Positions 6,646-37,278 of a stretch of DNA of 37,278 bases are shown here, piece after piece. The DNA is from Actinomycetota bacterium (lineage in GTDB: Bacteria; Actinomycetota; Actinomycetes; S36-B12; CAIYMF01). The position numbers and the translations under genes are program-made. A model generated the notes under the pieces. That model saw only the letters and a program-made list of their open reading frames with translations, was not told where the DNA came from and did no database searches. The number at the start of each line of letters is the position of its first letter. The stretch's first letter is position 1. The stretch is taken from the NCBI GenBank assembly GCA_947455705.1, contig CANGPO010000019.1, positions 1-37,278 of the forward strand. Reading direction: 5' to 3'.

Positions 6646-6667
6646 CGAGTATGACGACGGGAAAAGA

Positions 6668-6701
6668 CTGATGGCCGGCACCCGAAGGTGCCGGCCATCA
6701 G
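6668..6701 (-). terminator. Terminator of the histone-like gene, UUCG tetraloop
   Basis: A perfect 15-bp stem, CTGATGGCCGGCACC paired with its complement, encloses four bases. On the minus strand the loop reads TTCG closed by C-G, the very stable cUUCGg tetraloop, and the stem is followed by TCTTTTCCC. It begins 13 bases after the stop of the histone-like gene and lies upstream of the map promoter, so it separates the two units. Confidence 0.9.
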
Positions 6702-6714
6702 TTGTGAAGAACGA

Positions 6715-7203
6715 TTAGCGCTTTGCAGCCGTCTTGCGGGCTGGTGCACGCTTAACAGCGGCCTTCTTGGCAGGTGCCTTCTTGGCTGGTGCTGCCTTCT
6801 TAACAGCGGCCTTCTTGGCTGGTGCTGCCTTCTTAACAGCGGCCTTCTTGGCTGGTGCTGCCTTCTTAACAGCGGCCTTCTTGGCTGATGCTGCCTTCTT
6901 AACAGCGGCCTTCTTGGCCACAGCAGTCTTCTTGACTGCGGCCTTCTTGGCTGGTGCTGCCTTCTTAACAGCGGCCTTCTTGGCCACAGCAGTCTTCTTG
7001 ACTGCAGCCTTCTTGGCCACAGCAGTCTTCTTGACTGCAGCCTTCTTGGCTGGTGCCTTCTTGGCAACTGCCTTCTTGGCAACTGCCTTCTTGGCTGGAG
7101 CCTTCTTGGCTGGAGCCTTCTTCGCTACTGCCTTCTTGGCAGGAGCCTTTTTCGCGGGCGCCTTCTTGGCAACCTTCTTCGCGGTGGTCTTTGCAGCCGC
7201 CAC
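6715..7203 (-). CDS. Lys/Ala/Pro-rich histone H1-like DNA-binding protein
   Basis: The product is 162 residues, made almost entirely of repeated 4-10 residue units such as [12 protein letters not shown] and [11 protein letters not shown], ending [11 protein letters not shown]. It resembles the C-terminal tails of eukaryotic histone H1 and of actinobacterial HupB/HU-Lys proteins, which bind DNA non-specifically through lysines and help compact the nucleoid. Here no HU fold precedes the tail: the frame continues upstream, but the sequence there is not HU-like. GTG 7203 is preceded by AGGGAGG, so the tail-only protein starts there. The repeated codons make this stretch prone to length change. 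A strong terminator follows. Function in nucleoid compaction or ribosome/rRNA binding is inferred from composition alone. Confidence 0.75.
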
Positions 7204-7351
7204 GATGCCTCCCTGAGTCGTACTCCAGCCTTGTTGCCGGAATCCTGTGTTCTTAACTGTGTCAGAACTATTAACAAATGTGACGCATGTCCGCGTCGTT
7301 TTGCAAATTCGTGTCGTCATCGTGGTAACCCAGATCACAACGGGCACATGG

Positions 7352-8674
7352 CTAGTCAGTGTCTTGCTGTTGGTTTCTTTCGCGTTCTTCGCGCACTTGA
7401 GCAACGTGTATCGACGTGCGTTCGTCGTAATTCCATAGCGACGGTAGTGCGAGAGCGAGGCCGAAAACGCCTGCGGCACAGAGGATTCCACCAGTTGCAA
7501 TAGAGGATGTGAGTCCGCGCCATTGCGCGCCGAGGCTTACGCGTGCATTGCCAAGTTGTGGACCGATGGCGTACGACATGAGTTCTATGCCGGCAAGTCG
7601 ACCGCGAATCGAATCAGGAATTGATTTATTCCAGATGGCTTGGCGGAACACGACGCTCACCATGTCTGTCGCACCGGCCACTGCTAAAAACGCGAGTGCG
7701 ATGGGCAGGGTTGGTGAAACACCGAAGAGTGAAATCGACAAGCCGTAAGCGATGGCTGCGATGAAGATTGCACGTCCGTGACGATGGATGCGTGACGTCC
7801 AACCGCTTGTTAGTGAAGCGATTGCAGCACCGACGGCCGGTGCAGCGAAGAGCAATCCGAGTGCCCATGGTGCGTTGTACTTCTCTGCGACGAATGGAAA
7901 AACTGCCGTCGGAAAGGCAAAAATCATGGCCGTTGTATCTATGGCGTATGTGCCGAGCAAGTCCTTGCGCTGCCAGGCGTAACTCAGTCCGTCCGTGATT
8001 GACGACAGGCCGGGAAACTTATCCTCATGAGACATTCGGCCGCGACTGCTGATCTGAATAAGTAAGAAGAAGGATGCGATGTACGTGACGATGTCGAGTC
8101 CGTATGCAGTTGCAACGCCCCAGTAACTGGCGATGAAGCCGCCAAGAGCGGTGCCGAAGATGAATGTGGCGTTTCCACGTAACGACATGAGTGCCGCTGC
8201 ACTGGTGATTGCATCGTGATCCACCATCTGTGGAAGTAAGGCGTCGAGTGATGGACGTTGAATCGAATCAAAGATTGCGAACGTTGCACCCACAACGAAC
8301 AAAACCCACACCTGTGGTGACGGGCTGATGGCATTGATGAACAACACGACAGTGCACGTGGCTGCCCCGACTTCACCGATGAGCACCATGAGCCGACGGT
8401 CCATGTGGTCGGCAAGGGCGCCTCCCCATAGCCCAAAGACAATCAATGGGATCACCTCGGCTAAGCCAAGGAGACCGACGACGACGAAGGATCCCGTCAT
8501 CCTCTGTGCCTGGAGTGGGACCGCGACGTATGTAAACATCGAGCCGATCGTTGAGATCAGACCGGCGAAGAAAAGTAGGCGGAAGTCACGCGGACCTCGA
8601 AGCGCCGAAGTGTCGATCCGCCAACTTGATGACCTTGCCTCGTCGTCGTGCTTGTCAGGTGACGATGGAGTCAT
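7352..8674 (-). CDS. MFS transporter (EntS/MFS_3-like)
   Basis: The product is 440 residues. After about 30 hydrophilic residues there are about 12 hydrophobic segments, starting at FRLLFFAGLISTIGSMFTYVAV. The loop GGALADHMDRRLMV corresponds to MFS motif A between helices 2 and 3. Sequence style matches the MFS_3 group (enterobactin exporter EntS and related multidrug or macrolide exporters). Substrate and direction are unknown; export of a small molecule is likeliest for the group. The ATG at 8674 is 3 bases from the stop of the upstream gene, so the two are probably translationally coupled. No terminator is evident before the histone-like gene 148 bases downstream. Confidence 0.8.
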   Translation of the reverse strand: MTPSSPDKHDDEARSSSWRIDTSALRGPRDFRLLFFAGLISTIGSMFTYVAVPLQAQRMTGSFVVVGLLGLAEVIPLIVFGLWGGALADHMDRRLMVLIGEVGAATCTVVLFINAISPSPQVWVLFVVGATFAIFDSIQRPSLDALLPQMVDHDAITSAAALMSLRGNATFIFGTALGGFIASYWGVATAYGLDIVTYIASFFLLIQISSRGRMSHEDKFPGLSSITDGLSYAWQRKDLLGTYAIDTTAMIFAFPTAVFPFVAEKYNAPWALGLLFAAPAVGAAIASLTSGWTSRIHRHGRAIFIAAIAYGLSISLFGVSPTLPIALAFLAVAGATDMVSVVFRQAIWNKSIPDSIRGRLAGIELMSYAIGPQLGNARVSLGAQWRGLTSSIATGGILCAAGVFGLALALPSLWNYDERTSIHVAQVREERERNQQQDTD

Positions 8675-9432: not shown

Positions 9433-10119
9433 ATGACCGAAAACACATCCCCCTCACCTCATGATCTGCCTGACGTCAGCCATTTCACCGTAGGAGTCCT
9501 CGGTGGCACCGGAGAGCAGGGCCGAGGTCTTGCTCGACGCTTGGCCATGGCTGGGCAGCGGGTCATCATTGGATCGCGTTCTGCCGAACGGGCCGCCCAG
9601 TCAGCAACGGAACTGGGCTTCAATGTGACCGGCGCTGATAACGCTGGTTGTGCGCGTGATGCGGACATCGTGATCGTGGCCGTTCCTTACGACGGACATC
9701 AGGCGCTGCTCACAGAGTTGGCATCCGAACTGGCCGGCAAAATTGTGATCGACTGCGTGAATCCACTTGGGTTCGACAAGCAAGGCGCGTTTGGGCTTGC
9801 CGTCGAAGCTGGTTCAGCCGCGCAGGAGGCAGCAATCGCCGCACCAGAGGCCCGCGTCGTCGGTGCGTTCCATCACGTGTCGGCGGTGTTGCTGCTTGAT
9901 GTATCAGTAGATGAGATCAACACCGACATCTTGGTCGTTGGCGATGATCGCGAAGCCACTGACATCACTCAGGCGCTGGCCAACCGGATCTCGGGAATGC
10001 GTGGAATCTATGCAGGTCGCCTTCGCAATGCGCATCAGGTAGAAGCGATGACCGCGAATCTCATTTCGGTGAACCGTCGCTACAAGGCACATGCCGGTCT
10101 GCGAGTTACGGACGTCTAG
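9433..10119 (+). CDS. npdG: F420-dependent NADP reductase
   Basis: The product is 228 residues. The N-terminal Rossmann motif GVLGGTGEQGRGLARRLAMAG followed by VIIGSR is the NADP-binding signature of NADPH:F420 oxidoreductases (GTGxQGxGLA). Further family features are DIVIVAVPYDGH, IVIDCVNPL, GAFHHVSA and DILVVGDD. It moves hydride between F420 and NADP in the cytoplasm and implies that the organism makes coenzyme F420. ATG 9433 was chosen because the family motif begins about 20 residues later; the frame is open far upstream, but over the divergent gene. The short divergent spacer means both promoters overlap. A strong hairpin follows the gene. Confidence 0.88.
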   Translation: MTENTSPSPHDLPDVSHFTVGVLGGTGEQGRGLARRLAMAGQRVIIGSRSAERAAQSATELGFNVTGADNAGCARDADIVIVAVPYDGHQALLTELASELAGKIVIDCVNPLGFDKQGAFGLAVEAGSAAQEAAIAAPEARVVGAFHHVSAVLLLDVSVDEINTDILVVGDDREATDITQALANRISGMRGIYAGRLRNAHQVEAMTANLISVNRRYKAHAGLRVTDV

Positions 10120-10130
10120 AGCGCAACGTT

Positions 10131-10173
10131 GAATGATCGGTCGTCCAGAGGTGATCTGGGCGACCGATCATTC
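10131..10173. terminator. Bidirectional terminator between npdG and panB
   Basis: The arms GAATGATCGGTCGTCCAGA (10131-10149) and TCTGGGCGACCGATCATTC (10155-10173) pair along 19 positions with one G-T/A-C type interruption near the loop. The stem lies between the stops of the convergent npdG and panB genes; its right arm reaches into the panB stop codon. Confidence 0.8.
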
Positions 10174-11023
10174 AGTTATAGCTATGTTCAGGCGCTGGGT
10201 ACGCACCGGTCACGACATCGTCTGCCCAACGTGATGCGGCATCGAGTAACACCCCGTGGACATCGGCGTACTTCTTGACGAACTTTGCCGTGCGCCCAGG
10301 AGTCAGGCCCGCCATGTCTTGCCACACGATGACCTGAGCATCGGTGCCCGCGCCAGCTCCGATACCAACTGTCGGAATCTCCAGAGATGCGGTGACGGCC
10401 GTTGCCAGATCAGCCGGTACGACCTCAAGGACAACGGCAAATGCACCAGCTGCCGCAAGGGCCTTGGCATCCTGCATCAAGATGACGCCATCTTCACCGC
10501 GACCCTGCACTTTGTAGCCGCCGAAGGCATTGACGGACTGCGGGGTCAGGCCCAGGTGAGCCATCACGGGAATCCCAGATGCTACGAGTAATTCGACTTG
10601 GGGGAGTACGCGCGCGCCACCTTCTAACTTAACTGCGTGCGCCCCGGTTTCTTTCATAAAACGCGTGGCAGTCTCGAGTGCCTGCTGCGGTGATGCCTGA
10701 TAGGAGCCGAAGGGAAGATCGGCTACGACCATGGCGCGTTGCGAACCGCGCACAACTCCGCGCACAAGCGGAATCAGTTCGTCGACCGTCACGGGAATTG
10801 TTGAGTCGTGGCCGTAGACGACCATCGCGGCAGAGTCGCCTACGAGTAGGACGGGGATGCCAGCTTCGTCGAAAACGCGAGCGGTCAGGGCGTCATACGC
10901 CGTGATCATGGGCCATTTCTCGCCGCGCACCTTGGCGCCCGCGAGATCTGAAATGGATACGCGCCGCCCACTCGGTGCGCCGCCATAGAGCGGTTCCGGG
11001 ACAGCATTAACAGATGTGGTCAT
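10172..11023 (-). CDS. panB: 3-methyl-2-oxobutanoate hydroxymethyltransferase
   Basis: The product is 283 residues from the ATG at 11023 ([11 protein letters not shown]), which has AAGGGG about 7 nt upstream; the frame is open 9 codons further. The enzyme makes ketopantoate from 2-oxoisovalerate and methylene-tetrahydrofolate, the first step of pantothenate synthesis. Family motifs in order: [26 protein letters not shown] (metal Asp), ADLPFGSY (metal Asp), [23 protein letters not shown] (catalytic Glu), [15 protein letters not shown] and FVKKYAD. It stands alone, divergent from the drug-exporter gene and convergent with npdG. Confidence 0.95.
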
Positions 11024-25498: not shown

Positions 25499-26398
25499 TT
25501 ATGAACACGCATCGAGCAGCTGATCGGTGAGTCGATCCACTGCGGCAATTGTTTCGGTATCGAGTTCAAAGCCGACGGGCTGGCGCCGATGTGTGTGGGT
25601 GAAGATCCCTTGACGAACGAGCATGTGTTTCTCGACGGCGATGAATGAATCAAGGCTCGTCTGCAGCGAGACGAGAGCGGCGATTAACCCGTGTATCTGG
25701 CTGATCCGCTGCTCTTCTCGAGCCTCAAGCGCCCTCCAGAGCGCAACCAGTGCCCAAGGCATCTCCGCTCCGGGCATAGTGCCGACGATCCCACGGCTGA
25801 AGCTATCGACGAGCATGAGGCCACCGGTTCCTTCAAACACTCGTGCTCGTGCATCGCTGGCATCTCGCAGTGCAGACAGGCGTTGTCCGATCGGTGCCGC
25901 CTCAGGCTTCACATAAACCCGATCCGCCCCGTAGTTGTCGATGAGATCGACGTACAGCGAGATCGGTAACGCCCGCCCCAGATAGCCAGATGCATCCTGG
26001 ACCACGACGGGGATGTCGATTGATTCAATGATGTGACGAAAGTACGTGGTGATCTGTTCGTCGGGGAGCGCAACGGCCATCGGCGCGATAGCCATGACGG
26101 CGCTGGCGCCGATCTCTTGTGCATGTTGCGCGTAGGCAACCGCAAGGCGGGTTGTTTCAGCGCCAACACTGGTAATCACCGGTACACGACCGGCCGCATG
26201 CGACACCGTGATTTCGGCGAGGGTGCGTCGCTCACTCTCGCTAAGCCGCAAGACCTCAGAGACCATGGCAATGGTGAGACCGTCGACCCCGCAGTTGATG
26301 AGCCAGTCGATTTCTCGCTGCAGGATCGCGACGTCGATCTCGTCACTATCGCTGAAAGGCGTTGAGATTACGGGATACACGCCCGTCAGTGAACCCAT
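25499..26398 (-). CDS. DHDPS-family 2-keto-3-deoxy-acid dehydratase or aldolase
   Basis: The product is 299 residues from ATG 26398, which overlaps the SMP-30 stop (ATGA). It is a class I TIM-barrel lyase of the dihydrodipicolinate synthase/N-acetylneuraminate lyase family. K164 (VYVKPEA) is the Schiff-base lysine. The usual YNxP segment is replaced by VVQDASGYLG (131-140), as in L-2-keto-3-deoxyarabonate dehydratase, and the N-terminus GVYPVISTPFSDSDEID is standard. With the dehydrogenase, lactonase, IlvD-type dehydratase and semialdehyde dehydrogenase around it, the best guess is dehydration of a 2-keto-3-deoxypentonate to 2-oxoglutarate semialdehyde. An aldolase splitting it to pyruvate and glycolaldehyde is the alternative. 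Confidence 0.8.
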   Translation of the reverse strand: MGSLTGVYPVISTPFSDSDEIDVAILQREIDWLINCGVDGLTIAMVSEVLRLSESERRTLAEITVSHAAGRVPVITSVGAETTRLAVAYAQHAQEIGASAVMAIAPMAVALPDEQITTYFRHIIESIDIPVVVQDASGYLGRALPISLYVDLIDNYGADRVYVKPEAAPIGQRLSALRDASDARARVFEGTGGLMLVDSFSRGIVGTMPGAEMPWALVALWRALEAREEQRISQIHGLIAALVSLQTSLDSFIAVEKHMLVRQGIFTHTHRRQPVGFELDTETIAAVDRLTDQLLDACS

Positions 26399-27300
26399 CA
26401 CCGGTGTCCGCCGAATCGGAATGGAAGTCTTCCTCGAGCGTCGATGGGGGTTGTGATGACATGGCCTGCCCATGGCTCGGCTGCGCGTTGTTCGGGACTA
26501 AGGTCCTGCCACGCTGACGTCACGACGAGGGTGTCGCGATCTGGTCCGACGAGAGCGGGGCAGGTCAGTTTGGAAACGGGGGCGATCAATTCGCCGAGTA
26601 GTTCACCGTGAGGGGAGTAGCGACGAATGGCCGAGCCTTCCCAGAAAGCCACCCAAATCGAATCATCTTCGTCAACGATCACTCCATCGCTGATTCCTTG
26701 GTCCGTCGGTAGCGACACAAGATCTACGAGTCTCTCGCCGAGTGTGCCGTTGTCCACGTCGTATTCGTATCTGCGCACAACGGACTCATACGAGTCGACG
26801 TAGTACATGATTTTTCCGTCGATTGACCAATCAAGGCCGTTGGACTCGAAGATTCCGGTGAGTAGAACGCGAACGGTGAGATCGGTGTCGATGGAGAACA
26901 GCACGCCATTCGGTGGTCCGGCGGGATCTGAGTTGGTCCCGACGACGAATCGCCCTCGTGGATCGCACATACCGTCGTTGAACATGGTGTTCGCGGGCAG
27001 TTCGAGGGCCAGCGGTTCGGCATCGACGTCACCGTGCTCGTTGAGGAACACGATGTTCCCGTCGACGGCAGCGGCGATCCCGCCAACCTCGCGTAGTACT
27101 GCGACGCCAACATTGCTGCCCAACGAGATTGACGTGGTGTGCCACGGCAACGGTCCGCCAAAGGTGGTGCGGTGGACGGTGCCTGTTGGGATGTCGACCC
27201 AGACGAAGGTGCCTGTGCGCTCATCCCAGAGCGGGCGTTCGCCGATCTCACACGCCGAGGCAACTACCACGTCCCACTGCTCATGAACTGATCCGCTCAT
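26398..27300 (-). CDS. SMP-30/gluconolactonase-family sugar lactonase
   Basis: The product is 300 residues, a six-bladed propeller hydrolase. Metal-ligand positions fit the family: E21 (GERPLWDE), N154 (ESNGLDWS) and D205 (ISDGVIVDE), with N108/D109 (MFNDGMCDPRGRFVVGT) lining the active site. It should open the lactone formed by the neighbouring sugar dehydrogenase to the aldonate. The start overlaps the dehydrogenase stop by 4 bases, and its stop overlaps the next gene's ATG, so the three enzymes are translationally coupled and made in similar amounts. Confidence 0.88.
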   Translation of the reverse strand: MSGSVHEQWDVVVASACEIGERPLWDERTGTFVWVDIPTGTVHRTTFGGPLPWHTTSISLGSNVGVAVLREVGGIAAAVDGNIVFLNEHGDVDAEPLALELPANTMFNDGMCDPRGRFVVGTNSDPAGPPNGVLFSIDTDLTVRVLLTGIFESNGLDWSIDGKIMYYVDSYESVVRRYEYDVDNGTLGERLVDLVSLPTDQGISDGVIVDEDDSIWVAFWEGSAIRRYSPHGELLGELIAPVSKLTCPALVGPDRDTLVVTSAWQDLSPEQRAAEPWAGHVITTPIDARGRLPFRFGGHR

Positions 27301-28295
27301 GGGGTTACCTCCATAAGAACTTTGCCTCGAGCCCCAACGGGCTTACGAAGTGTTGCGATGGCAGATGCATAGTCGTCGAGTGTGAATCGATGCGTGACAA
27401 GGAATCCCGGATCAAAGCTGCCTGAGTTTAAAAGGGCAACCACATCCGCCCACGCACTGCGGGTGTAGGAGAAGCTACCCAAAATCAGTAGGTCGCCATT
27501 GATGACGTCATCCACGGGTAGCGGGGCAGCATGGCCTTGCCCTGGGTAACCCAGCAGCACAATTCGTCCACCGCGCGCCGCACTATTGAGAGCAACTGTG
27601 GTGGCGACGATGGCGCCTGCGGCATCAATGATGAGTGAGTAGCCCGAAGCAGTTTCGTCGGGATTGGTCGTAAACAGATCGACCCCTGCTGTGGCGGCCA
27701 AATCACGTTGTTCATCGCGTGCCCCCAGCATCGTGACGGACGTGGGATTCCATTGGCGGACAAGCAATGCGGCCAGCAGTGCGATCGTTCCATCGCCGAC
27801 AACGAGAACTTTCTCTCCCTGTTGGGGATCGATGCGTTGAAGTGCTCGCAGAACGACGGCTGAGGGCTCGGTGAGTGCGGCTGATTCCCAACTCACGTGA
27901 TCGTTCATGGCGTGTACTAGGTCAGGATGCGCGATCACTGCATCCATAGCTGCGCCATCGCGGGTGAAGCCGTATTCGTCATAAATGGCGCAGCGATTGG
28001 TGGCACCTCGACGGCATTCTGCACAGTCGCCACAGGCAATGACACCCTCGACCACCACCTTGGTTCCGGCGGGAAATGCCTCGCTACCAACGCTGACTAC
28101 GCCAGCCCATTCGTGGCCGATCACGATCGGGTAGTTAACGAAGTCTGGGTCAATTGTTCCGTCAAGGATGTCCACATCGGTGCCGCATACTCCAACAACC
28201 TTCGGGCTGATAACGAGGTTGCCATCGCTTGCCACAACATCATCGCGCTGCTGCAACGTAATGGTTCCGGGCTCCACAACAGTGAGTGCGCGCAT
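27297..28295 (-). CDS. Zinc-dependent medium-chain sugar dehydrogenase
   Basis: The product is 332 residues from ATG 28295 (a GTG one codon earlier is also possible). Catalytic-zinc ligands are C37 (VCGTD) and H61/E62 (GHEWAG); structural-zinc ligands are C88, C91, C94 and C102 (CGDCAECRRGATNRC). The cofactor domain has VLVVGDGTIALLAALL, a slightly altered GxGxxG. It belongs with the sorbitol/threonine/galactitol dehydrogenases. In this operon it probably oxidises the sugar at C1 to a lactone with NAD(P)+. The ATG overlaps the iclR stop. Confidence 0.85.
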   Translation of the reverse strand: MRALTVVEPGTITLQQRDDVVASDGNLVISPKVVGVCGTDVDILDGTIDPDFVNYPIVIGHEWAGVVSVGSEAFPAGTKVVVEGVIACGDCAECRRGATNRCAIYDEYGFTRDGAAMDAVIAHPDLVHAMNDHVSWESAALTEPSAVVLRALQRIDPQQGEKVLVVGDGTIALLAALLVRQWNPTSVTMLGARDEQRDLAATAGVDLFTTNPDETASGYSLIIDAAGAIVATTVALNSAARGGRIVLLGYPGQGHAAPLPVDDVINGDLLILGSFSYTRSAWADVVALLNSGSFDPGFLVTHRFTLDDYASAIATLRKPVGARGKVLMEVTP

Positions 28296-29137
28296 CACAA
28301 CATCAACCCTCTGCGACCACCGTCGCTGACAAGTGCAGTTACAGCTTCTGCTGCTCGTTGCACGGCATGGCCAAGTTCTTCAATCTGACGTGGGGTTTGA
28401 TCGAGTTTGATTCCCGTCGCGCTCACAGCGCCAGTCACTTTGCCACTTCGATCGACAAAGGGTGCCGCGACGCAGAAGACCCCCTCGACATCTTCTTCAT
28501 CGTCGATCGCATAACCGCGTCGGCGTGTGGCGTCGAGGTCAAGCTCGAGATCGGCCAACGTTGTGATCGTCTTACGGGTGCGGCGGGGGAGTCCGGTCTC
28601 GGCAATGAGCTGTGTGACCTCGGCGCTGGTCATCTGCGACAGGATCGCCTTACCGGCCGAACTGGTGTGGGGTAGCTCGCGCACACCGAGGGCCGTGTGA
28701 AATCGAATAGTGCCAGGTGAATCCACTCGCGCAATGAAAATCGGATAGCCGTGATCGGAGATTGCTGCCCGTGTGGTTAATCCGGTGTCGCGACTGAGTT
28801 GCAGCAGCACGGGTTCGCAGACCTGACCGAGTGGGAAGTCACGGCTCGCGTCATCGCCGAGGCGCACGAGGGCCATACCCAAGTGATACCGCGGGCCGGG
28901 CTGCACTTCACGCAGAAATCCTCGAGTCACCAGAGTGCGTACGAGCGCGAATGCGGTGGACTTAGAGGTTCCGATAGTGCGGGCGATCTCGGACACGGTC
29001 ATTCCGTCATCAGTGGATGCGGCCACCGTCTCCAGAACGGTCAATGCGCGAGCGACGCTACCGACGGTGTATCGGTCCCGTTGTTCGACTGCGTTGTCGC
29101 CTGCGGTCGGACCACGTTCATAAGTGGACGCGCTCAT
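28295..29137 (-). CDS. IclR-family regulator of the sugar locus
   Basis: The product is 280 residues. An N-terminal winged HTH (about 24-85: SVARALTVLETVAASTDDGMTVSEIARTIGTSKSTAFALVRTLVTRGFLRE) is followed by the IclR effector domain (about 100-270: LSRDTGLTTRAAISDHG, RVDSPGTIRFHTALGVRELPHTSSAGKAILSQM, GYAIDDEEDVEGVFCVAAPFVDRSGKVTGAVSATG). It is the first gene of the minus-strand catabolic operon and divergent from the plus-strand operon; the 141 bases between them hold inverted repeats suited to dimer binding. It probably represses both operons until a pathway intermediate binds. Confidence 0.92.
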   Translation of the reverse strand: MSASTYERGPTAGDNAVEQRDRYTVGSVARALTVLETVAASTDDGMTVSEIARTIGTSKSTAFALVRTLVTRGFLREVQPGPRYHLGMALVRLGDDASRDFPLGQVCEPVLLQLSRDTGLTTRAAISDHGYPIFIARVDSPGTIRFHTALGVRELPHTSSAGKAILSQMTSAEVTQLIAETGLPRRTRKTITTLADLELDLDATRRRGYAIDDEEDVEGVFCVAAPFVDRSGKVTGAVSATGIKLDQTPRQIEELGHAVQRAAEAVTALVSDGGRRGLML

Positions 29138-29278: not shown

Positions 29279-30427
29279 ATGGTGCCAGTGTCCGATGAGA
29301 GTCCGCTCTCACGTGCACGCACCCTTGTGACCGCTCATCGCGGCGCCGATGGGGATTCCAACCGAGCGCAGGTAGCGGGCATCGTTCTGACGCGGCCGGG
29401 GCCGGTCTCATGGGTAATCCCTGGAATCAATCCGCCCATCGATCGCACTGCAGCTATCGACACCGTGTGGGTCGCCATTGGCCCTGATTCCTGCACGGTC
29501 ATCACCACCGAGGTTGAACAGCGGCGGGTGAGCGAAGAACTACTCCCGGCCGGGGTCGAACTGGTCGCCGTGCCGTGGTGGGATGGCCAAGCCATGGTGA
29601 GTGCTGCGCAACAAGCCCTCGGAGTGTCACTCGAGCACATTGGCAGTGACGGCCATCCAGCATTCGGGCACGACCTCGACCACGAGCTAACAGTGACGCG
29701 TTTGGCATTGAACTCAGATGAGCGGGTGCGGCTGTGCACTCTCGGCCGGCTGGCAACGCTCGCCGTTGAGGATGCACTTCGATCGTGGCAGCCAGGTGAG
29801 GCTGATACCGAGATTGCGGCTCGCATTGCTCAGGGCGTCGAAAGGTTCGGTGGAGACGCGCCCGTGCTACTCGTCGGCGCGGACGACAGATTGCGCCGAT
29901 ACCGACACCCGGTAGCAGTCGGTGCTCCGGCGCGGGAATGCGTTATGGCAGTTCTCGTTGCCCGGTCTCGAGGGTTGCATGTCGCACTAACTCGATACAC
30001 CGCCTGTGGTGATACCGCCGAGCTTGAAGCTGGGCTTGATGTCACTCGGTCGATTCACCGCGACGTTCTAAACGCTGGCCGCCCTGACGTCACGTACGGC
30101 TCGGTTCTAGAAACCCTCGCCAACTCCTATGCGGCTCATGGTCATGCTGGTGCGTGGAGCGAGCATTACCAAGGCGGACCCATCGGCTACGCGCAGCGCG
30201 AATTCGAAATCTCGCCTGCCCAGCAGACAAGCCCGTGGTGGGATCAGCTTGTTCATGAAAACACCGCAGTTGCCTGGAACCCCAGTGTGGCCGGTGGGTT
30301 GAAAGATGAAGACACGTATCTCATTTCAGCCGACGGCGTGCACCTAGTGACGGACTCAGCACAGTGGCCGATGGATTCGGATCCGCTACTTCCTAGACCG
30401 TTGGTGCTACGACGTGATGATGTATGA
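29279..30427 (+). CDS. M24-like (creatinase/prolidase fold) protein lacking metal ligands
   Basis: The product is 382 residues from ATG 29279, preceded by AGGGAG. It has the two-domain M24 layout: a creatinase-type N-terminal domain (about 10-140) and a pita-bread C-terminal domain (about 145-380). The region that normally holds the two metal aspartates (DxG...SDxTR) reads LVARSRGLHVALTR (226-239), so both appear lost. H296 (HYQGGPIGYAQRE) and E344 (KDEDT) remain. A metal-dependent peptidase is therefore unlikely; lyase or decarboxylase-like activity, or a non-catalytic role, is possible. It heads the plus operon of the sugar locus; a conserved place in sugar-acid clusters would suggest a pathway role. 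Function unknown. Confidence 0.75.
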   Translation: MVPVSDESPLSRARTLVTAHRGADGDSNRAQVAGIVLTRPGPVSWVIPGINPPIDRTAAIDTVWVAIGPDSCTVITTEVEQRRVSEELLPAGVELVAVPWWDGQAMVSAAQQALGVSLEHIGSDGHPAFGHDLDHELTVTRLALNSDERVRLCTLGRLATLAVEDALRSWQPGEADTEIAARIAQGVERFGGDAPVLLVGADDRLRRYRHPVAVGAPARECVMAVLVARSRGLHVALTRYTACGDTAELEAGLDVTRSIHRDVLNAGRPDVTYGSVLETLANSYAAHGHAGAWSEHYQGGPIGYAQREFEISPAQQTSPWWDQLVHENTAVAWNPSVAGGLKDEDTYLISADGVHLVTDSAQWPMDSDPLLPRPLVLRRDDV

Positions 30428-30455: not shown

Positions 30456-31376
30456 ATGATTTCCGATCAGATCATTTCTGCAGCGGGGTTGCCGACGGAG
30501 TCTGTTCCGCAAGCAAGCCAGGCGCGCTTCCCGGATGGCGCTCACATGCGCATCGAGATTCCGTCAGTCGAGGGCCCGGGAGTCCTTGCCGCTGTTCTCG
30601 ACGAAGCCAAGAAGCGCGGCGTTGTGGTCAACCGCGTATCCCAAGGCAGCGGTGCGATGCTGCACACGAAGATCGAGCTTCGCGAGATGTCGATGATCGC
30701 CGCCGATGCTGGGCTGGAGATCTCTCTGTTCGTTGGCCCACGCGAAGAGTGGGGAACTCAGGCGATGTCGCGCTCTCCTGAAGGTCCTGCGCTAGGCGGC
30801 GCTATTCGCGGCATGCGACAGATGCGGTACGCCGTCGACGACGTACTGCGTGCCATCGACTGTGGCATTCGCGGATTCCTGATCGCTGACCTCGGCCTAC
30901 TTCAGGTGCTTAGCCAAGCCCAAGCTCGTGGCGAGATTCCAGCCTCGGTGGTGTGGAAGGTATCGGTCATGCTCGCTCCATCGAATGCGGCAACTCTGGC
31001 CGTCTTGGCGTCACTTGGCGGCCACACCGTCAATCTTCCGACGGATCTAACGCTGCATGAATTGGCCGAGATGCGCGCTGTCACTGATCTGCCGCTTGAT
31101 CTTTATGTGGAGGCTCCGGACGGCCTTGGTGGAGTGGTTCGTGGAGAACAGATCGCCGACCTCGTCACTGTGGCAGCCCCGCTCTACGCGAAGTTTGGCC
31201 TGCGTAACTCGCGCGGAATCTATCCGTCTGGAATGCATTTACAAGCCGACGCCGAACTCATCGGACGTGAGAAAGTCCGGCGGGCCGAGATCTCGATGGA
31301 GTGGTTGGAGCGATCGGGTGTTGACATCATCCAGTCTGCGCCAGGTGCGGCGGGCCTTGGAATTCCTGACCTGTAA
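30456..31376 (+). CDS. Uncharacterised TIM-barrel protein (U32-like)
   Basis: The product is 306 residues, soluble, with no signal peptide. Its sequence suggests an alpha/beta barrel: HMRIEIPSVEGPGVLAAVLDEAKKRGV, CGIRGFLIADLGLLQVLS, VVWKVSVMLAPSNAATLAVLASLGGHTVNLPTDLTLHELAEMRAVTDLPLDLYVEAPDGLGG, ending QSAPGAAGLGIPDL. The style resembles barrels labelled peptidase U32, but I see no U32 Cys cluster or other peptidase signature, so that label would be doubtful. It sits between the M24-like gene and the sugar-acid dehydratase, 28 and 56 bases from each. A role in the same pathway, perhaps as an epimerase, isomerase or aldolase, is inferred from context only. ATG 30456 is preceded by GAAGGG. Confidence 0.7.
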   Translation: MISDQIISAAGLPTESVPQASQARFPDGAHMRIEIPSVEGPGVLAAVLDEAKKRGVVVNRVSQGSGAMLHTKIELREMSMIAADAGLEISLFVGPREEWGTQAMSRSPEGPALGGAIRGMRQMRYAVDDVLRAIDCGIRGFLIADLGLLQVLSQAQARGEIPASVVWKVSVMLAPSNAATLAVLASLGGHTVNLPTDLTLHELAEMRAVTDLPLDLYVEAPDGLGGVVRGEQIADLVTVAAPLYAKFGLRNSRGIYPSGMHLQADAELIGREKVRRAEISMEWLERSGVDIIQSAPGAAGLGIPDL

Positions 31377-31397: not shown

Positions 31398-31432
31398 GTA
31401 GTCGTGACGATGATTCTGAGAGGAGGAATGTG

Positions 31433-33148
31433 ATGAGAAGCAGTGAGTGGTTCGCCGGTGACGACGAGGTCGCGGTTGCACACCGCGTTGCTCTACGTAC
31501 GTCCGGATTGGATATTCAGGCCAATGACACTCGACCGATTATCGGCATCGCAGATTCCTCGTCTGATCTCAACCCGTGCAATCTTCCGTTACGCGCGTTG
31601 GCGAGTGATGTCTCCGCCGGAATCGTTGCCGCAGGTGGGATTCCCGTCATGTTCTCGGTAATGAGCATGGGCGAAGATCTGATGAAGCCATCGGCTCTGC
31701 TCTATCGCAACCTGTTGGCGATGGAGGTGGAGGAGTACATCCGCTCGTACCCCATAGATGGCGTTGTCCTGCTTGCCAATTGCGATAAGTCAGTGCCGGG
31801 TGCACTGATGGGTGCGGTGTCTACTGACATTCCCACCCTCGTTCTCACCGGTGGCGCGCGACCGATTGCGAAGTTCCGTGGCAAGCGTGTTGGCACTGGC
31901 ACGGATTTGTGGCGGGCATGGGAGCAACACCGCACTGGTGAGATGAGCGATGCCGACTGGGCCGAATTCGAGTCATGTTTGAACTGTGGACAGGGTGCGT
32001 GTAACACCATGGGCACGGCATCTTCCATGGCAATCACCACTGAAACATTGGGTATGTGTCTGCCGGGCAGTGCCTCAATTCCGGCCGATCATCCCGATCG
32101 CGTAGCCGCAGCGTACGCAACCGGTGAGCGCATTGTCGCGATGGTCAAAGATGATGTCCGTCCGTCGTCGATTCTCACCGACACTGCATTCGCCAACGCC
32201 ATTCGCATGTTGAGTGCATGTGGGGGATCCACCAACGCGGTCTTGCATCTGCTGGCCATCGCTGGACGCACGGCGTCATCGCTCACCTTGGACGATGTGG
32301 GCAGGATCGCCCAAACGGTGCCCGTACTTGCCGACGTCGAGCCGTCGGGTTCGCTCTTGATCCAGGACTTCCATGATTCAGGTGGCGTGCCTGCCATGGT
32401 TCGCGAATTAGGCGCCCTGTTCGTCAACTCAGCGGTAACTGCATCTGGCCGAACGTGGCGTGATGAGGCTGCTGACGCCGGGCCTCGAGGACTGGCGATT
32501 CGTTCGATCGACGATCCCATGTTCACCGATGGTGCCTTTGCCGTTGTTCGGGGGAGTTTGGCCCCGCGCGGTGCACTCATCAAGATTTCGGCGGCCAGTT
32601 CGCACCTCTTGCGTCACACCGGGCCGGCATTGGTATTCCATTCCTATAACGACATGCGCAGTCGCATCGACGACGAGGCTCTGACGGTGTCCCCTGAGAC
32701 TGTGTTGGTTTTTGGTGGTGCCGGCCCGGTGGCTGTACCGGGCATGCCCGAGTGGGGAATGATCCCCATTCCGGCCAAGCTCGCAGCGGCCGGGGTCACC
32801 GATATGGTTCGCGTCACGGACGCCCGCATGAGTGGAACGTCGTTCGGAACGTGTGTTTTACATACCGCTCCCGAGGCCGCCGTGGGCGGTCCGCTGGCCC
32901 TCGTTCGTGATGGTGACCTCATCACCCTCGACGCGATCGCCGGCACCCTTGATCTCGATGTTCCAGAAGAGGAATTGGAACGTCGACGGGCCGAGTGGAC
33001 GCCGCCGGTGTCTGCCCACGTTCGTGGATGGCCCATGCTCTACCAGCAACACGTCACCCAAGCCGACCTCGGATGCGATCTCGATTTCTTGAGAGCGGAC
33101 ACGCCCGAAGCACGTGTATTCGTGCCACCGGTGGTGGGAAGGTCATGA
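31433..33148 (+). CDS. IlvD/Edd-family sugar-acid dehydratase
   Basis: The product is 571 residues from ATG 31433 (AGGAGG 6 nt upstream; GTG 31430 is one codon earlier). The three cluster cysteines of the family are C49 (NPCNLPL), C117 (ANCDKSVPG) and C190 (CGQGACNTMGTAS). HLLAIAGRT, DFHDSGGVPAMVRELG and DARMSGTSFGTCVLH are conserved family blocks. Length and the pathway context favour a pentonate/aldonate dehydratase (arabonate, xylonate, or gluconate type) over dihydroxy-acid dehydratase of branched-chain amino-acid synthesis, because the neighbours are sugar genes and no ilv gene is near. It removes water from the aldonate to give 2-keto-3-deoxy acid, using a 2Fe-2S or 4Fe-4S cluster. Its stop overlaps an ATG of the binding-protein frame. 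Confidence 0.88.
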   Translation: MRSSEWFAGDDEVAVAHRVALRTSGLDIQANDTRPIIGIADSSSDLNPCNLPLRALASDVSAGIVAAGGIPVMFSVMSMGEDLMKPSALLYRNLLAMEVEEYIRSYPIDGVVLLANCDKSVPGALMGAVSTDIPTLVLTGGARPIAKFRGKRVGTGTDLWRAWEQHRTGEMSDADWAEFESCLNCGQGACNTMGTASSMAITTETLGMCLPGSASIPADHPDRVAAAYATGERIVAMVKDDVRPSSILTDTAFANAIRMLSACGGSTNAVLHLLAIAGRTASSLTLDDVGRIAQTVPVLADVEPSGSLLIQDFHDSGGVPAMVRELGALFVNSAVTASGRTWRDEAADAGPRGLAIRSIDDPMFTDGAFAVVRGSLAPRGALIKISAASSHLLRHTGPALVFHSYNDMRSRIDDEALTVSPETVLVFGGAGPVAVPGMPEWGMIPIPAKLAAAGVTDMVRVTDARMSGTSFGTCVLHTAPEAAVGGPLALVRDGDLITLDAIAGTLDLDVPEEELERRRAEWTPPVSAHVRGWPMLYQQHVTQADLGCDLDFLRADTPEARVFVPPVVGRS

Positions 33149-33216
33149 CGTTACGAAAGTCCAGCAAGGAAGTACCACGTAAGAAACTCGCCAATGTACG
33201 TACAACTGGAGGACAG

Positions 33217-34530
33217 GTGCGCAAGCTCACTCTCATGGCAGTCGCAGCGGCATCCGCTGTGGTTCTCGCCGCATGTTCTAGTGGTGGTGGATCGGGAACG
33301 ACCTCACCGAGCGCGTCCGGTGGCTCAGCCGCACCGGTTACGTTGACGCTCTGGCACAACTACGGCACCGAGCAAAATGCTGTTGCTACGCAAAATCTGG
33401 TGAAGGCCTACCAGGCTGAACACCCGAACGTCACGATCAATCTCGTGAGCCAGCCAGGTGACAACTACTTCTCGTTGTTGCAGGCAGCCGCTGTATCGCA
33501 GTCTGGTCCAGACCTTGCTGTGATGTGGACCGGTCTGTTCACCCTTCAGTACAAGTCATTCCTGACCAACCTCAAGGATCTAGTGCCGGCCGATGCATTG
33601 AGTAAGGTGCAGGGCCTGGAGTGGACGGCCGATGGCTTCAACAAGGACAACGGCCCTTACGTCATGCCACTTGAGAAGCAGTTCTACATCGGCTTCTACA
33701 ACAAGGCCGACTTCGCCAAGGCTGGTGTCGCATCAGTCCCAACGACGTGGGATGAACTGGGTGCGGCCTGCACCAAGCTCAAGGCGGCTGGCTTCACGCC
33801 GCTTGTCTACGGCAATGGTGGACAGGCTCTGGGCGCGGAGTTCTACCCCTGGTACGACTCGAGTTACCTCATGATTGGTAAGTACTCGGTTGAGCAGTGG
33901 AAGGATCTGTACAACGGCAAGATCGCCTGGAACTCACCTGAGAACATTGCCCAGTACACCAAGTGGGCAAATCTCGAGAAGTCCGGATGCACCAACACGG
34001 ACATCCTCACCAAGACCAACAACATCGACGACTTCACCTCAGGTAAGGCCGCGATGATCATCGATGGAACCTGGGATACCCAGAAGTACACCGATGCGAT
34101 GAAGGACAACGTCGCCGCATTCGTACCACCGTTCTCTGATACGCCGATCAAGGGCGTTGTCGAGTACCCCGGTGACGGTTTCGGAATCACCAGCTACTCC
34201 CAGCACCAGAAGGAGGCCGCGGACTTCTTGGCCTTCATGACCTCCGATGCTGGAGTCAAGGCAATCAACGATGCGGGTCTGATCCCTGACATCACTGGTG
34301 CAACCACCACGAACCCGGTTAACCAGCAGATGCTTGATTTCGCTGAGAATCAGGGCTTCACGCGCTACCCAATGCTCGACAACGTCATCCAAGGCGATGT
34401 CGTCGACGCCGGTAACAAGGTGTTGCCATCGGTGCTTGCCGGAAAGATGTCGCCAACTGAGGCACTAGACCAGCTCAATACTGCGTGGAAGAACCTTTCG
34501 CCAGATAAGCAGGGTCCTGACTACTCGTAG
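33217..34530 (+). CDS. CUT1-type ABC sugar-binding lipoprotein
   Basis: The product is 437 residues from GTG 33217, which has GGAGG 4 nt upstream. This gives a compact lipoprotein signal RKLTLMAVAAASAVVLAAC with the lipobox LAAC (Cys20). An ATG at 33145, overlapping the dehydratase stop (ATGA), is the alternative and would add 24 basic residues. After a Ser/Gly linker the mature part is a family 1 solute-binding protein: LTLWHNYGTEQNAVATQNLVKAYQAEHPNVTINLV, GPDLAVMW, TWDELGAACTKLKAAGFTPLVYG, SGKAAMIIDGTWD and DFLAFMTS. It binds a mono- or oligosaccharide outside the membrane for the two permeases that follow. The sugar is inferred from the pathway, probably a pentose. Confidence 0.88.
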   Translation: MRKLTLMAVAAASAVVLAACSSGGGSGTTSPSASGGSAAPVTLTLWHNYGTEQNAVATQNLVKAYQAEHPNVTINLVSQPGDNYFSLLQAAAVSQSGPDLAVMWTGLFTLQYKSFLTNLKDLVPADALSKVQGLEWTADGFNKDNGPYVMPLEKQFYIGFYNKADFAKAGVASVPTTWDELGAACTKLKAAGFTPLVYGNGGQALGAEFYPWYDSSYLMIGKYSVEQWKDLYNGKIAWNSPENIAQYTKWANLEKSGCTNTDILTKTNNIDDFTSGKAAMIIDGTWDTQKYTDAMKDNVAAFVPPFSDTPIKGVVEYPGDGFGITSYSQHQKEAADFLAFMTSDAGVKAINDAGLIPDITGATTTNPVNQQMLDFAENQGFTRYPMLDNVIQGDVVDAGNKVLPSVLAGKMSPTEALDQLNTAWKNLSPDKQGPDYS

Positions 34531-34543
34531 TCACTCGGTAGTT

Positions 34544-34580
34544 GTGTGTGGTGGGGGTCGATCAGGCTCCCACCACACAC
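34544..34580 (+). other. Intercistronic hairpin between binding protein and permease genes
   Basis: GTGTGTGGTGGG (34544-34555) pairs perfectly with CCCACCACACAC (34569-34580) across a 13-base loop. The stem begins 14 bases after the binding-protein stop, and no T-run follows. This position is typical of the hairpins that stabilise binding-protein mRNA relative to permease mRNA in ABC operons. Confidence 0.7.
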
Positions 34581-34640
34581 TGCCGCGTCAGAAAATCGTT
34601 CAGTTCGAACGATCATGTTCATGGTGAGAGGAGCGATTCG

Positions 34641-35564
34641 GTGAGTAGTGCGACGGCGTCATCGACATCGTCGATGTCACAGCCTCGACGTGGTCGTTCG
34701 GTCATTGGTAAGCGTCGCGCCCGATCCGGCATTGTGATGGCGGCTCCCGCTGTCATCTTGGTGTTGCTCGTCTTGGGGATCCCGATCTTCCAGGCCCTCT
34801 ATTACTCAATGACGGACTGGAATGGCATCACGGCGCATTGGATCGGCCCGTCTACGTATCTACACGAGTTTCAGAACCCCACTTTTTGGCGAGTTCTACT
34901 CAACAATGCTTTGTTACTTCTGGCTGTGCCCATTGCGGTCATGATTCCCATGGGAATCGCCTACCTGCTTAACGAACGCGTCCGCGGCTGGCAACTGTTT
35001 CGCTCCATCTATTTCCTTCCCACTGCGATCTCATGGGTCGTGATCGGAATGGTCGCTCTGCGGTTTTTCGCCGCTGACGGTGTTCTGAATCATCTGTTGA
35101 GCGCTTTTGGGTTGGGCTTCATCCAAACGGACATGCTGTCCGACCAGCATCAGGCGTTGATCGCAGTGGCCTTGACCTTTATTTGGTCGATGGTGGGAAC
35201 GAACACCATCATTTTCCTCACCGGTATGGCCACCCTTGATCCGTCCCTTGCAGAAGCTGCGAAGGTTGACGGTGCGGGGGCATGGAAAGTTCTGTGGCAC
35301 ATCAGCCTGCCGCAACTTAAGCGCTTCATTCAGTTTGCGACCGTCCTCACCTTGATTAGCGCATTCACAGCGCTGTTCAGCCTGATCTTCGTCATGACAG
35401 GTGGCGGACCCGGATACGGAACGACGACGTTGGAGTTCTTCGTGTATCAGACGGCGTTCTCGCGTGGCCTGTTTGGAACCGGTGCCATGCTCGGAATCAT
35501 CTTGTTCGTCATCATGGCTGTTGTCGGCTTGCTTCAACTTCGTCTATTGCGGACGGAGGACTGA
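34641..35564 (+). CDS. ABC sugar permease, MalF type
   Basis: The product is 307 residues from GTG 34641, preceded by GAGAGGAG at 7 nt. After a basic, Ser-rich N-terminus there are about six membrane segments (MAAPAVILVLLVLGIPIFQALYY; LLLAVPIAVMIPMGIAYLL; and so on). The cytoplasmic EAA loop, EAAKVDGAGAWKVLWHISLPQLKR, contacts the ATPase. With the next gene it forms the transmembrane pair of a CUT1 importer. No ATPase gene is in the window; CUT1 importers of actinobacteria often share an MsiK-type ATPase coded elsewhere, or the gene may lie beyond the right edge. Confidence 0.88.
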   Translation: MSSATASSTSSMSQPRRGRSVIGKRRARSGIVMAAPAVILVLLVLGIPIFQALYYSMTDWNGITAHWIGPSTYLHEFQNPTFWRVLLNNALLLLAVPIAVMIPMGIAYLLNERVRGWQLFRSIYFLPTAISWVVIGMVALRFFAADGVLNHLLSAFGLGFIQTDMLSDQHQALIAVALTFIWSMVGTNTIIFLTGMATLDPSLAEAAKVDGAGAWKVLWHISLPQLKRFIQFATVLTLISAFTALFSLIFVMTGGGPGYGTTTLEFFVYQTAFSRGLFGTGAMLGIILFVIMAVVGLLQLRLLRTED

Positions 35565-35566
35565 TC

Positions 35567-36445
35567 ATGTCTGGCATCACAGTTGACGAACTCGTACCGC
35601 CTGAATCACGACAGCATGCCGTCACAAACACGCGGCGTCGACGTTCACCGGTGAAGCAGATACTGCTCTTCGCGTTGATGGTGCTGATCGCCATCGTCAT
35701 GCTGTACCCGTTTTACTTCATGGTGGATACGTCCTTGAAGTCGAACGATCAGTTCTTGCACGGTGGTGGTCATTCACTCGAATCGTGGACGTCATTGAGT
35801 AAGGCGCTGCCCTGGGGGCAGCAGATGGTCAACTCGGCAATCGTTTCAGCGGCTGCGATCGTGATCATCCTCGTCGTGAGTAGTCTGGCCGGCTTCTCAT
35901 TCGCGAAGTTGCAGTTCCGGATGTCGGGGTTTGTCTTGATGGGCGTTGTGGCAGCAATGCTCATCCCCGTGCAGTCGATCATCATCCCGGTCTACGTCAA
36001 CATCGCTCACCTACATCTTCTGAACACGTACGTCGGTGCCGTGGTCGTATACGCAGCTCTTGGTACTCCGTTCGCCACCTTTCTGATGACCGCCTACTAC
36101 CGCAGCATTCCCGACGACGTTGTCGAGGCCGGCATCGTTGATGGTTTGTCGTACTCACAGGTGTTTCGACGGATCGCACTGCCACTGTCTACTCCAGCAC
36201 TCATTACCATCACCGTGCTCCAGTTCATCCAGATTTGGGACGACCTACTGGTCGGATTGCTGTTTCTGCAAAATCCGTCGCAGCGCACAATCACCGTTGG
36301 TCTTGGCGCGTTGGCCGCTGGTCGAACCACGGATATTCCGGTGCTTATGGCAGGCTCGATTATGAGTGCGATTCCCGCGATCTTGGTGTACTTGGTGTTT
36401 CAGCGGTTCTTGATCAACGGACTTACGGCCGGTATCGGCAAGTAA
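35567..36445 (+). CDS. ABC sugar permease, MalG type
   Basis: The product is 292 residues, starting 2 bases after the first permease stop, with CGGAGGA in front of the ATG. A basic N-terminus (NTRRRRSPVKQ) precedes about six membrane segments (LLFALMVLIAIVMLYPFYFMV; IVSAAAIVIILVVSSLAGF; LMGVVAAMLIPVQSIIIPVYV and others). The EAA loop is EAGIVDGLSYSQVFRRIALPLSTPAL. It completes the membrane pair of the importer. Confidence 0.9.
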   Translation: MSGITVDELVPPESRQHAVTNTRRRRSPVKQILLFALMVLIAIVMLYPFYFMVDTSLKSNDQFLHGGGHSLESWTSLSKALPWGQQMVNSAIVSAAAIVIILVVSSLAGFSFAKLQFRMSGFVLMGVVAAMLIPVQSIIIPVYVNIAHLHLLNTYVGAVVVYAALGTPFATFLMTAYYRSIPDDVVEAGIVDGLSYSQVFRRIALPLSTPALITITVLQFIQIWDDLLVGLLFLQNPSQRTITVGLGALAAGRTTDIPVLMAGSIMSAIPAILVYLVFQRFLINGLTAGIGK

Positions 36446-36505: not shown

Positions 36506-37278
36506 ATGCCATCTCAATCTGTTGACCCCCGTACCGGCGTTGCCTTTGGCCCCGTCATCGACGACACATCGGTCGAGGATGTTCGCGCTATATGTGCTCG
36601 GGCACAAGCCGCGACCGCAGTGTGGGGTTCGACGTCGAAAGCGGCCCGTGCAGCGATGCTGCGCGCCGGCGCTGACGCACTTGATGCCGCTGCCGAACAA
36701 CTCATCCCGCTCGCGGATCAAGAAAGTGGTCTAGGCATTCCTCGGGTTACCGGCGAGTTGGCCCGAACAACCTTCCAGATTCGGATGTTTGCCGATGCCG
36801 TCGAGCAGGGCGCGTTCCAAGAAGTCATCATTGACCCGGCCGATGACCGTCCCGTTCCCGTTGGCCACCCGGACCTTCGACGGATGCTCGTGCCGTTGGG
36901 TGCGGTGGCAGTATTCGGTGCTAGTAACTTCCCCTTCGCATTCTCGGTAGCAGGTGGGGACACCGCGTCAGCGCTGGCCGCGGGTTGCCCCGTGGTCGTC
37001 AAGGCTCACCCTGCACATCCGCAGCTGTCCGCGGCTGTTCACGCCGTCCTATCCGATGCGCTCACAGCAGCGGGAGCACCTGCAGGTGTCTTCGGCATCG
37101 TGCATGGGTTCGAAGCCGGTCAGATGCTGGTGAGTGATCCGAGCATTAAGGCCGCTGCCTTTACCGGATCCGGACCTGGTGGACGAGCCCTATTCGATCT
37201 TGCGGTGTCGCGACCAGATCCGATTCCTTTCTACGGCGAACTCGGCAGCGTGAATCCGGTCTTCGTTACACCGCAGGC
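36506..37278 (+). CDS. Aldehyde dehydrogenase, 2-oxoglutarate-semialdehyde type, N-terminal part
   Basis: The gene runs off the right edge; 257 residues are present of an expected 500 or so. ATG 36506 has GAGGAAACGAC in front. The N-terminus MPSQSVDPRTGVAFG and the block VAVFGASNFPFAFSVAGGDTASALAAGCPVVVKAHPAHP, followed by AAFTGSGPGGRAL and PFYGELGSVNPVFV, are typical of 2-oxoglutarate-semialdehyde dehydrogenases of sugar-acid pathways (with NAD(P)+-binding K and the general-base Glu in GELGS). The catalytic Cys lies beyond the edge. In the proposed pathway it oxidises 2-oxoglutarate semialdehyde to 2-oxoglutarate, which enters the TCA cycle. Other aldonate or lactaldehyde-type activities remain possible. 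Confidence 0.85.
   Translation, partial: MPSQSVDPRTGVAFGPVIDDTSVEDVRAICARAQAATAVWGSTSKAARAAMLRAGADALDAAAEQLIPLADQESGLGIPRVTGELARTTFQIRMFADAVEQGAFQEVIIDPADDRPVPVGHPDLRRMLVPLGAVAVFGASNFPFAFSVAGGDTASALAAGCPVVVKAHPAHPQLSAAVHAVLSDALTAAGAPAGVFGIVHGFEAGQMLVSDPSIKAAAFTGSGPGGRALFDLAVSRPDPIPFYGELGSVNPVFVTPQ

Follow-up and report, generated by a model that had tools for sequence, protein, structure and literature searches.

TIM-barrel proteins of the U32 family (PF01136), including TrhP, RlhA, and UbiU/UbiV, are known for the hydroxylation of RNA or ubiquinone, and the peptidase activity of the family is itself doubtful. A four-cysteine motif (CX6CX15CX3/4C) is described for eight of ten U32 protein families, with distinct spacings in UbiU/UbiV, where such cysteines bind a 4Fe-4S cluster, and U32 groups #5 and #6 are described as being without a conserved four-cysteine cluster (PMC6747719). 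For the dehydration of 2-keto-3-deoxy-pentonate, two enzyme types are known: an L-type from the DHDPS family and a D-type from the FAH family (PMC7374468). The window analyzed here, a 37,278-nt stretch of DNA from an Actinomycetota bacterium (GCA_947455705.1, contig CANGPO010000019.1, forward strand positions 1-37,278), encodes a TIM-barrel protein that is probably a cluster-free U32-like barrel serving known pathway chemistry.

The barrel gene and its operon

The barrel gene (30456..31376, + strand) has an ATG start codon and codes for a protein of 306 amino acids. Its ORF starts 28 nt 3' of the end of an M24-like gene (30427), and 53 nt separate its end from an IlvD/Edd gene at 31430, with both neighbors on the same strand. 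The ORF is a genuine gene and not a chance reading frame, because relatives recur across the class (51/296 genomes), the phylum (31/296 genomes of the phylum sample), and GTDB contigs, where at least 577 relatives were confirmed. The window's own genome carries one copy. Among the matches listed are members of Actinomycetota, Chloroflexota, Acidobacteriota, Bacillota (Paenibacillus, Cohnella), Deinococcota (Trueperaceae), and other phyla.

The upstream M24-like protein (29279..30427, + strand; creatinase/aminopeptidase fold, PF00557 at 26.1 bits with a cut-off of 23) belongs to the same operon, in which it is a second 'peptidase-like' gene. Downstream is a sugar-acid dehydratase of the IlvD/Edd family (31430..33148, + strand; PF00920/PF24877), whose gene has a GTG start followed by ATG as the next codon. 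Its best solved relatives are 8ej0, which is named dihydroxyacid dehydratase (578 bits), and the L-arabinonate dehydratase 9evv (543 bits). Then follow, also on the + strand, the substrate-binding protein (SBP) of a sugar ABC transporter (PF01547; listed as an ORF at 32995..34530, although the real start lies further in), a pair of putative sugar permeases of the ABC type (at 34542-35564 and 35567-36445, assigned by sequence reading and neighborhood BLAST), and an aldehyde dehydrogenase (36506..37276; PF00171) that is cut by the window end. The solved structures nearest to a full-length relative of this last protein are the NADP+ aldehyde dehydrogenases 1eyy/3v4c, and a role on alpha-ketoglutaric semialdehyde (KGSA) is suggested for it. 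A previous interpretation made from the letters alone, hereafter the sequence-only reading, had assigned the barrel gene to one operon with the dehydratase, transporter, and semialdehyde dehydrogenase, and all of these indeed follow the barrel gene on the + strand.

Divergent from the operon is an IclR-family regulator (28295..29137, - strand; PF01614/PF09339). The same strand carries genes for a zinc alcohol (sugar) dehydrogenase (27297..28298; PF08240/PF00107), an SMP-30/gluconolactonase-like (SGL) lactonase (26398..27300; PF08450), and a DHDPS-family enzyme (25499..26473; PF00701). The best PDB match for the latter is the L-2-keto-3-deoxyarabonate dehydratase 7c0c (104 bits), and the enzyme is probably an L-2-keto-3-deoxy-pentonate dehydratase. 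As judged by Pfam classes, PDB relatives, and BLAST context, the cluster includes all classes of a non-phosphorylative (Weimberg-type) sugar operon, counted as sugar dehydrogenase, lactonase, IlvD/Edd, 2-keto-3-deoxy acid dehydratase, semialdehyde dehydrogenase, and ABC transporter. We read it as an oxidative (Weimberg-like) cluster of the pentose type, with an enzyme for each of the five textbook steps. The claim that five steps are accounted for had been made before, and Pfam matches and PDB relatives bear it out for the zinc dehydrogenase, SGL, IlvD/Edd, DHDPS-family enzyme, and aldehyde dehydrogenase.

Elsewhere in the window are two low-complexity proteins, one with Ser/Pro/Thr repeats (3719-4300, + strand) and another with a Lys/Ala-rich (AKKAPAKKA) C-terminal tail (6609-7500, - strand).

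Relationship to U32 proteins and predicted fold

The PF01136 (Peptidase_U32) model matches only residues 129-218 of the barrel protein (27.8 bits versus a curated cut-off of 22.4) and is matched by 49/50 aligned barrel members at E up to 1. When compared with E. coli TrhP by hhalign, residues 122-220 align with TrhP 74-167 (probability 92.8, E 4e-7). TrhP E162, which is essential (PMC6599085), aligns with D215 of the barrel protein, an acid that is invariant in 116/116 relatives, with Glu in the one protein and Asp in the other. The alignment ends at residue 220, before TrhP C170 and C177. We take the PF01136 match to reflect real distant homology in the middle part of the barrel.

The U32 four-cysteine motif, sought as CX6CX14-16CX3-4C, occurs in 0/116 distinct barrel relatives. 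On average, these relatives have 1.6 Cys per protein, and none is in a conserved column (the commonest is occupied in 32/116). By these comparisons, the barrel protein is a distant, cysteine-less U32 relative and does not appear to be an Fe-S hydroxylase. It resembles U32 proteins such as 5d88 in having a TIM barrel with homology over strands 4-7, but it is without the 4Fe-4S cysteines and without homology past residue 220. Moreover, U32 members act in RNA or ubiquinone hydroxylation, whereas the barrel gene occurs in a sugar-catabolic context. The 'U32 peptidase' label must be considered misleading, because the four-cysteine motif is absent from all of these relatives, and nothing in the sequences supports peptidase activity. 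The sequence-only reading had regarded the label as unsupported by any peptidase motif. This holds with respect to motifs, as neither a peptidase nor an Fe-S motif is present, but the HMM search does place PF01136 above its curated cut-off, so the label has a basis in real, if distant, homology.

In the libraries searched, the barrel family is known only via the U32 label, as in the Thermomicrobium roseum copy, which is annotated 'U32 family peptidase'. The barrel protein matches no NCBIfam model (E up to 1), and a PDB sequence search with the single protein likewise gave no match (E up to 10). The sole PDB match of the barrel profile, tagatose-bisphosphate aldolase 1gvf, has an E value of 1.2 and is meaningless. 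We found no paper in the licensed PMC literature that ties a U32-like protein to sugar-acid catabolism. There are also no fusion proteins among the loci, as none of the ORFs combines the barrel with a match to a further pathway profile. Long barrel ORFs of 600-650 amino acids are N-terminal open-frame extensions and not fusions.

An AlphaFold model based on 50 aligned sequences predicts an eight-stranded TIM barrel (pLDDT 90.1, pTM 0.90), and this fold, which had been proposed from the sequence, is also recovered in fold searches. The best Foldseek match is the U32 protein 5d88 (E 3.4e-7), to which VIA-align gives a Z of 14.5 and an rmsd of 3.0 over 187 residues. The top VIA-align matches are the CutC proteins 3iwp, 4r9x, and 1twd (Z 15.3, 15.3, and 15.1; rmsd 3.0-3.3 over 198-205 residues). 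The likeness to CutC is confined to the TIM barrel and these alignments; sequence identity is 12-14%, RuBisCO-like and U32 barrels score within 1 Z, and we draw no functional inference from it. We rejected the fold search as a guide to function, with CutC, RuBisCO-like, U32, class II aldolase, and GH84 barrels all at Z 13-15.

Catalysis in TIM barrels takes place at the C-terminal strand ends. When 116 distinct relatives were checked position by position, 18 polar or charged residues proved invariant in 116/116 (E34, S37, E39, R60, S62, Q63, D145, K168, S170, N177, N193, D215, Y217, E219, R229, K246, Y256, and R276). Most of these are located where the eight predicted strands of the model end on the C-terminal side, or just beyond. 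This clustering argues for one conserved enzyme chemistry in the barrel family, with the 18 positions as putative active-site residues. K168 and K246, on predicted strands 5 and 8, are candidate Schiff-base lysines.

Gene neighborhoods of barrel relatives

In a set of 118 loci, which includes a few short contigs as well as identical rows and whose gene maps are mechanical ORFs, the barrel gene frequently adjoins genes for sugar-acid dehydratases. On the same strand and within 400 bp of the barrel gene, an IlvD/Edd dehydratase is found in 32/118 loci and an enolase-superfamily dehydratase in 20/118, which agrees with the earlier claim of a conserved position next to such an enzyme. Within 4 kb, the counts are 39 for IlvD/Edd, 37 for the enolase superfamily (here any MR/MLE protein that an iterated profile retrieved at E 1e-10), 24 for aldehyde dehydrogenase, and 18 for SGL. 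A second count was made for homologues of the window cluster in 80 named loci, which are the best 80 of at least 577 relatives and are skewed to close relatives; several are near-identical or on short contigs, and the denominator of 80 retains the latter. Near the barrel gene, these loci include IclR (36), IlvD (33), zinc dehydrogenase (33), SBP (30), the two permeases (30 and 28), aldehyde dehydrogenase (22), M24-like (21), SGL (17), and DHDPS (5) homologues. Close homologues of the aldehyde dehydrogenase are present in 24 of the barrel loci examined.

Loci without IlvD often carry an enolase-superfamily dehydratase together with an SDR dehydrogenase, an MBL or SGL lactonase, and an ABC transporter. 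The best NCBIfam models for this enolase-type partner are D-gluconate/D-galactonate and galactonate dehydratase, both below cut-off. In a quick barrel tree with SH-aLRT support only, there are at least five changes between IlvD and enolase partners among 76 labelled rows while the barrel stays, with 31 rows having neither dehydratase and 12 being too short to score. Among the 296 genomes of the phylum sample, 20 encode the enolase-type partner with at least 50% identity, and 19 of these also carry the barrel, always on the same contig and within 1.3 kb. The barrel occurs in 12 of the 276 other genomes and in 0/8 that have only weaker enolase-family matches. Because the partner swaps between two unrelated dehydratase families while the barrel stays, the barrel is tied to sugar-acid dehydration whichever family carries it out. 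What the IlvD/Edd and enolase types have in common is the substrate and the product (the 2-keto-3-deoxy acid).

Some loci have other arrangements. Four loci from Mycobacterium/Mycolicibacterium, each lacking a dehydratase gene, encode a dehydrogenase, the barrel, a lactonase, and an aldehyde dehydrogenase. For eight Acidobacteria barrel loci, no sugar pathway partner was found. In seven Acidobacteria loci (L085, L086, L088, L091, L094, L099, and L113), the barrel gene often follows a homoserine-kinase gene (TIGR00191 at 249 bits in L086, with a cut-off of 168) and an IolG-like oxidoreductase gene, and there is no sugar-acid dehydratase nearby. M24-like homologues are also present in three barrel-free control loci with aldehyde dehydrogenase (L231, L243, and L245), each of which has an enolase-superfamily gene and a DHDPS gene.

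Small genomes labelled f31 carry a block in which the barrel gene is accompanied by genes for an SDR (~235 amino acids), an APH-family kinase, and a second enolase (L115 9960-12949; also L114, L116, and L119-L122). Two enolases are encoded by 10/10 f31 genomes examined, and the paralogue is within ~12 kb of the barrel gene in 9/10 and ~27 kb away in the tenth (G114). In one f31 genome (G278), a window-type cluster (L188 4951-12597) with IlvD (61%), SBP, permease, IclR, and ADH genes plus DHDPS is without the barrel gene, which is elsewhere in the genome.

Possible functions of the barrel protein

On the basis of this neighborhood, we consider it very likely that the barrel protein is an enzyme of an oxidative, non-phosphorylative sugar-acid pathway. 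More tentatively, and with somewhat less than even confidence, we propose that it is a lyase (a dehydratase, perhaps an aldolase) acting on a 2-keto-3-deoxy sugar acid, which would add a third family to the known DHDPS and FAH types. The neighboring dehydratase would make the 2-keto-3-deoxy sugar acid that serves as substrate. In operons that end in a semialdehyde dehydrogenase, the barrel protein would then carry out a second dehydration to yield alpha-ketoglutaric semialdehyde, and elsewhere it might catalyze aldol cleavage. For this chemistry it would draw on one of two invariant lysines, K168 or K246, together with carboxylates at the barrel's C-terminal mouth. The predicted role, neighborhood, TIM barrel, and a possible Schiff-base lysine are all reminiscent of DHDPS-family L-2-keto-3-deoxy-pentonate dehydratases and KDG aldolases (7c0c, 3fkk), but the barrel protein does not match PF00701 (DHDPS/NAL) at E up to 0.1, its lysines are on predicted strands 5 and 8, and the window has a separate DHDPS gene. 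Similarly, the predicted reaction is that of the FAH-family D-2-keto-3-deoxy-pentonate dehydratase (XylX type), whose fold family is unrelated, and there is no match to PF01557 (FAH) at E up to 0.1.

The lyase proposal draws most on operons in Paenibacillus and Cohnella (L084, L095, and L098). These encode an SBP, two permeases, an SDR, a GH4 glycosidase, an aldose-1-epimerase, IlvD, the barrel, and an aldehyde dehydrogenase, with the last three genes in this order. In L084, from P. baekrokdamisoli, the gaps on either side of the barrel gene (9968-10900) are 34-39 nt, and the dehydrogenase matches NF042993 (alpha-ketoglutaric semialdehyde dehydrogenase) at 860.6 bits (cut-off 770). One step is missing in these operons between the IlvD product and the dehydrogenase substrate, and the barrel gene is the sole unassigned gene between. 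In the three loci, DHDPS and FAH profiles have no match within ~10 kb. Only two genes of the DHDPS family are present in the complete genome of P. baekrokdamisoli; one is a strong DapA match, the other is DapA-like, and neither is near the operon. In Paenibacillus, DHDPS was searched over this complete genome and FAH within the loci. A single missing step, a single unassigned gene to fill it, and no DHDPS or FAH gene in the same loci together suggest a lyase.

If the barrel protein replaces the known dehydratases, the two should seldom occur together. Of the 17 loci in which both an IlvD and an aldehyde dehydrogenase gene accompany the barrel, 13 have no DHDPS- or FAH-type gene and 4 have a known type; there are only two barrel-free controls, and both have one. 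For IlvD loci in general, a known-type enzyme is found in 10/33 with the barrel versus 11/18 without (Fisher p 0.042, with non-independent loci). No difference is evident for aldehyde-dehydrogenase loci (13/34 with the barrel versus 10/20 without, p 0.57), and there is no contrast for enolase-type loci, where KDPG aldolase or PfkB is found in 2/8 loci without the barrel (L178-L185) and DHDPS, FAH, or PfkB in 3/12 with it (L166-L177). The co-occurrence test is thus weakly supportive of a lyase. Enzymes of known type do coexist with the barrel. A DHDPS-family enzyme is encoded in the window and in 5 of the best 80 of at least 577 relatives, an FAH-family gene is beside the barrel gene together with IlvD and aldehyde dehydrogenase genes in two f31 genomes (L115 and L116), and a KDPG aldolase and a sugar kinase accompany the barrel in L114, L118, L121, and L123. 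In the window, the barrel protein would complement the DHDPS-type dehydratase and not take its place; it might, for instance, act on the opposite enantiomer. This coexistence, the loci without a dehydratase, the weak replacement test, the f31 block, and the epimerase alternative discussed below all temper our enthusiasm for the lyase assignment.

The f31 block suggests a C3 product, and therefore an aldolase. It is possibly a dedicated glycerate-to-PEP branch, in keeping with the glycerate kinase/enolase logic described for a C3 branch (PMC2063504). A 2-keto-3-deoxy sugar-acid aldolase that forms pyruvate and glyceraldehyde or glycolaldehyde (Route I only, with no dehydration) would fit a series from pyruvate plus glyceraldehyde through glycerate and 2-phosphoglycerate to PEP. 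It would also render complete those operons in which an ABC transporter, a dehydrogenase, an enolase-type dehydratase, and the barrel are followed by no later enzyme (L089, L166, and similar loci). However, an aldolase leaves unexplained why, in Paenibacillus, the barrel gene is flanked by those for IlvD and KGSA dehydrogenase. The argument is further weakened by the KDPG aldolase genes that each of the 10 f31 genomes examined carries, one of which adjoins the barrel gene in L123. We therefore regard a function restricted to aldol cleavage as unlikely.

We are similarly doubtful that the protein is an epimerase or isomerase of a sugar acid or lactone that supplies the stereoisomer accepted by the dehydratase. 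Such an activity would account for the 'extra' status of the barrel where all later steps are present (the window, L114, and L123) and for its company with lactonases where there is no dehydratase (the Mycobacterium loci and Anaerolineae L087, L097, and L106), and the many acids that vary little or not at all (E34, E39, E88, and E219) would be suited to proton transfer. However, one unvarying putative active site is found across differing dehydrogenases, dehydratases, and probably sugars, and the position between dehydratase and KGSA dehydrogenase in Paenibacillus again argues against this function. The sequence-only reading had raised an epimerase, a helper, or a second aldolase, any of which is conceivable; the evidence leans toward a lyase on a 2-keto-3-deoxy acid.

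The frequent SDR genes beside the barrel gene (the L089 set and the f31 block) would be consistent with a C-C hydrolase that acts on a 2,4-diketo-3-deoxy acid after an SDR 4-dehydrogenase, as in Route III (PMC6336799), but the window and the IlvD loci mostly have a zinc dehydrogenase and not an SDR, no hydrolase motif was recognised in the barrel, and we judge this function improbable. A U32-type prephenate-dependent hydroxylase or peptidase that is in the operon by chance is very improbable despite the PF01136, hhalign, and Foldseek matches, given the missing Fe-S cysteine motif, the end of homology at residue 220, and the persistent sugar-pathway context.

Stated most broadly, the lyase proposal is that a third non-homologous class of dehydratase/lyase for 2-keto-3-deoxy-pentonate and related compounds arose from a U32 barrel after loss of the Fe-S cluster, and that it fills the gap from dehydratase to KGSA dehydrogenase in Actinomycetota, Chloroflexota, Bacillota, and others. 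In this full form, we consider the proposal possible but rather doubtful. If the barrel protein is a sugar-acid lyase, then the 'U32 family peptidase' label would be wrong across several phyla, and oxidative sugar operons that appear incomplete would become complete. The U32 family, otherwise known for prephenate-dependent hydroxylation, would also gain a metabolic, cluster-free branch.
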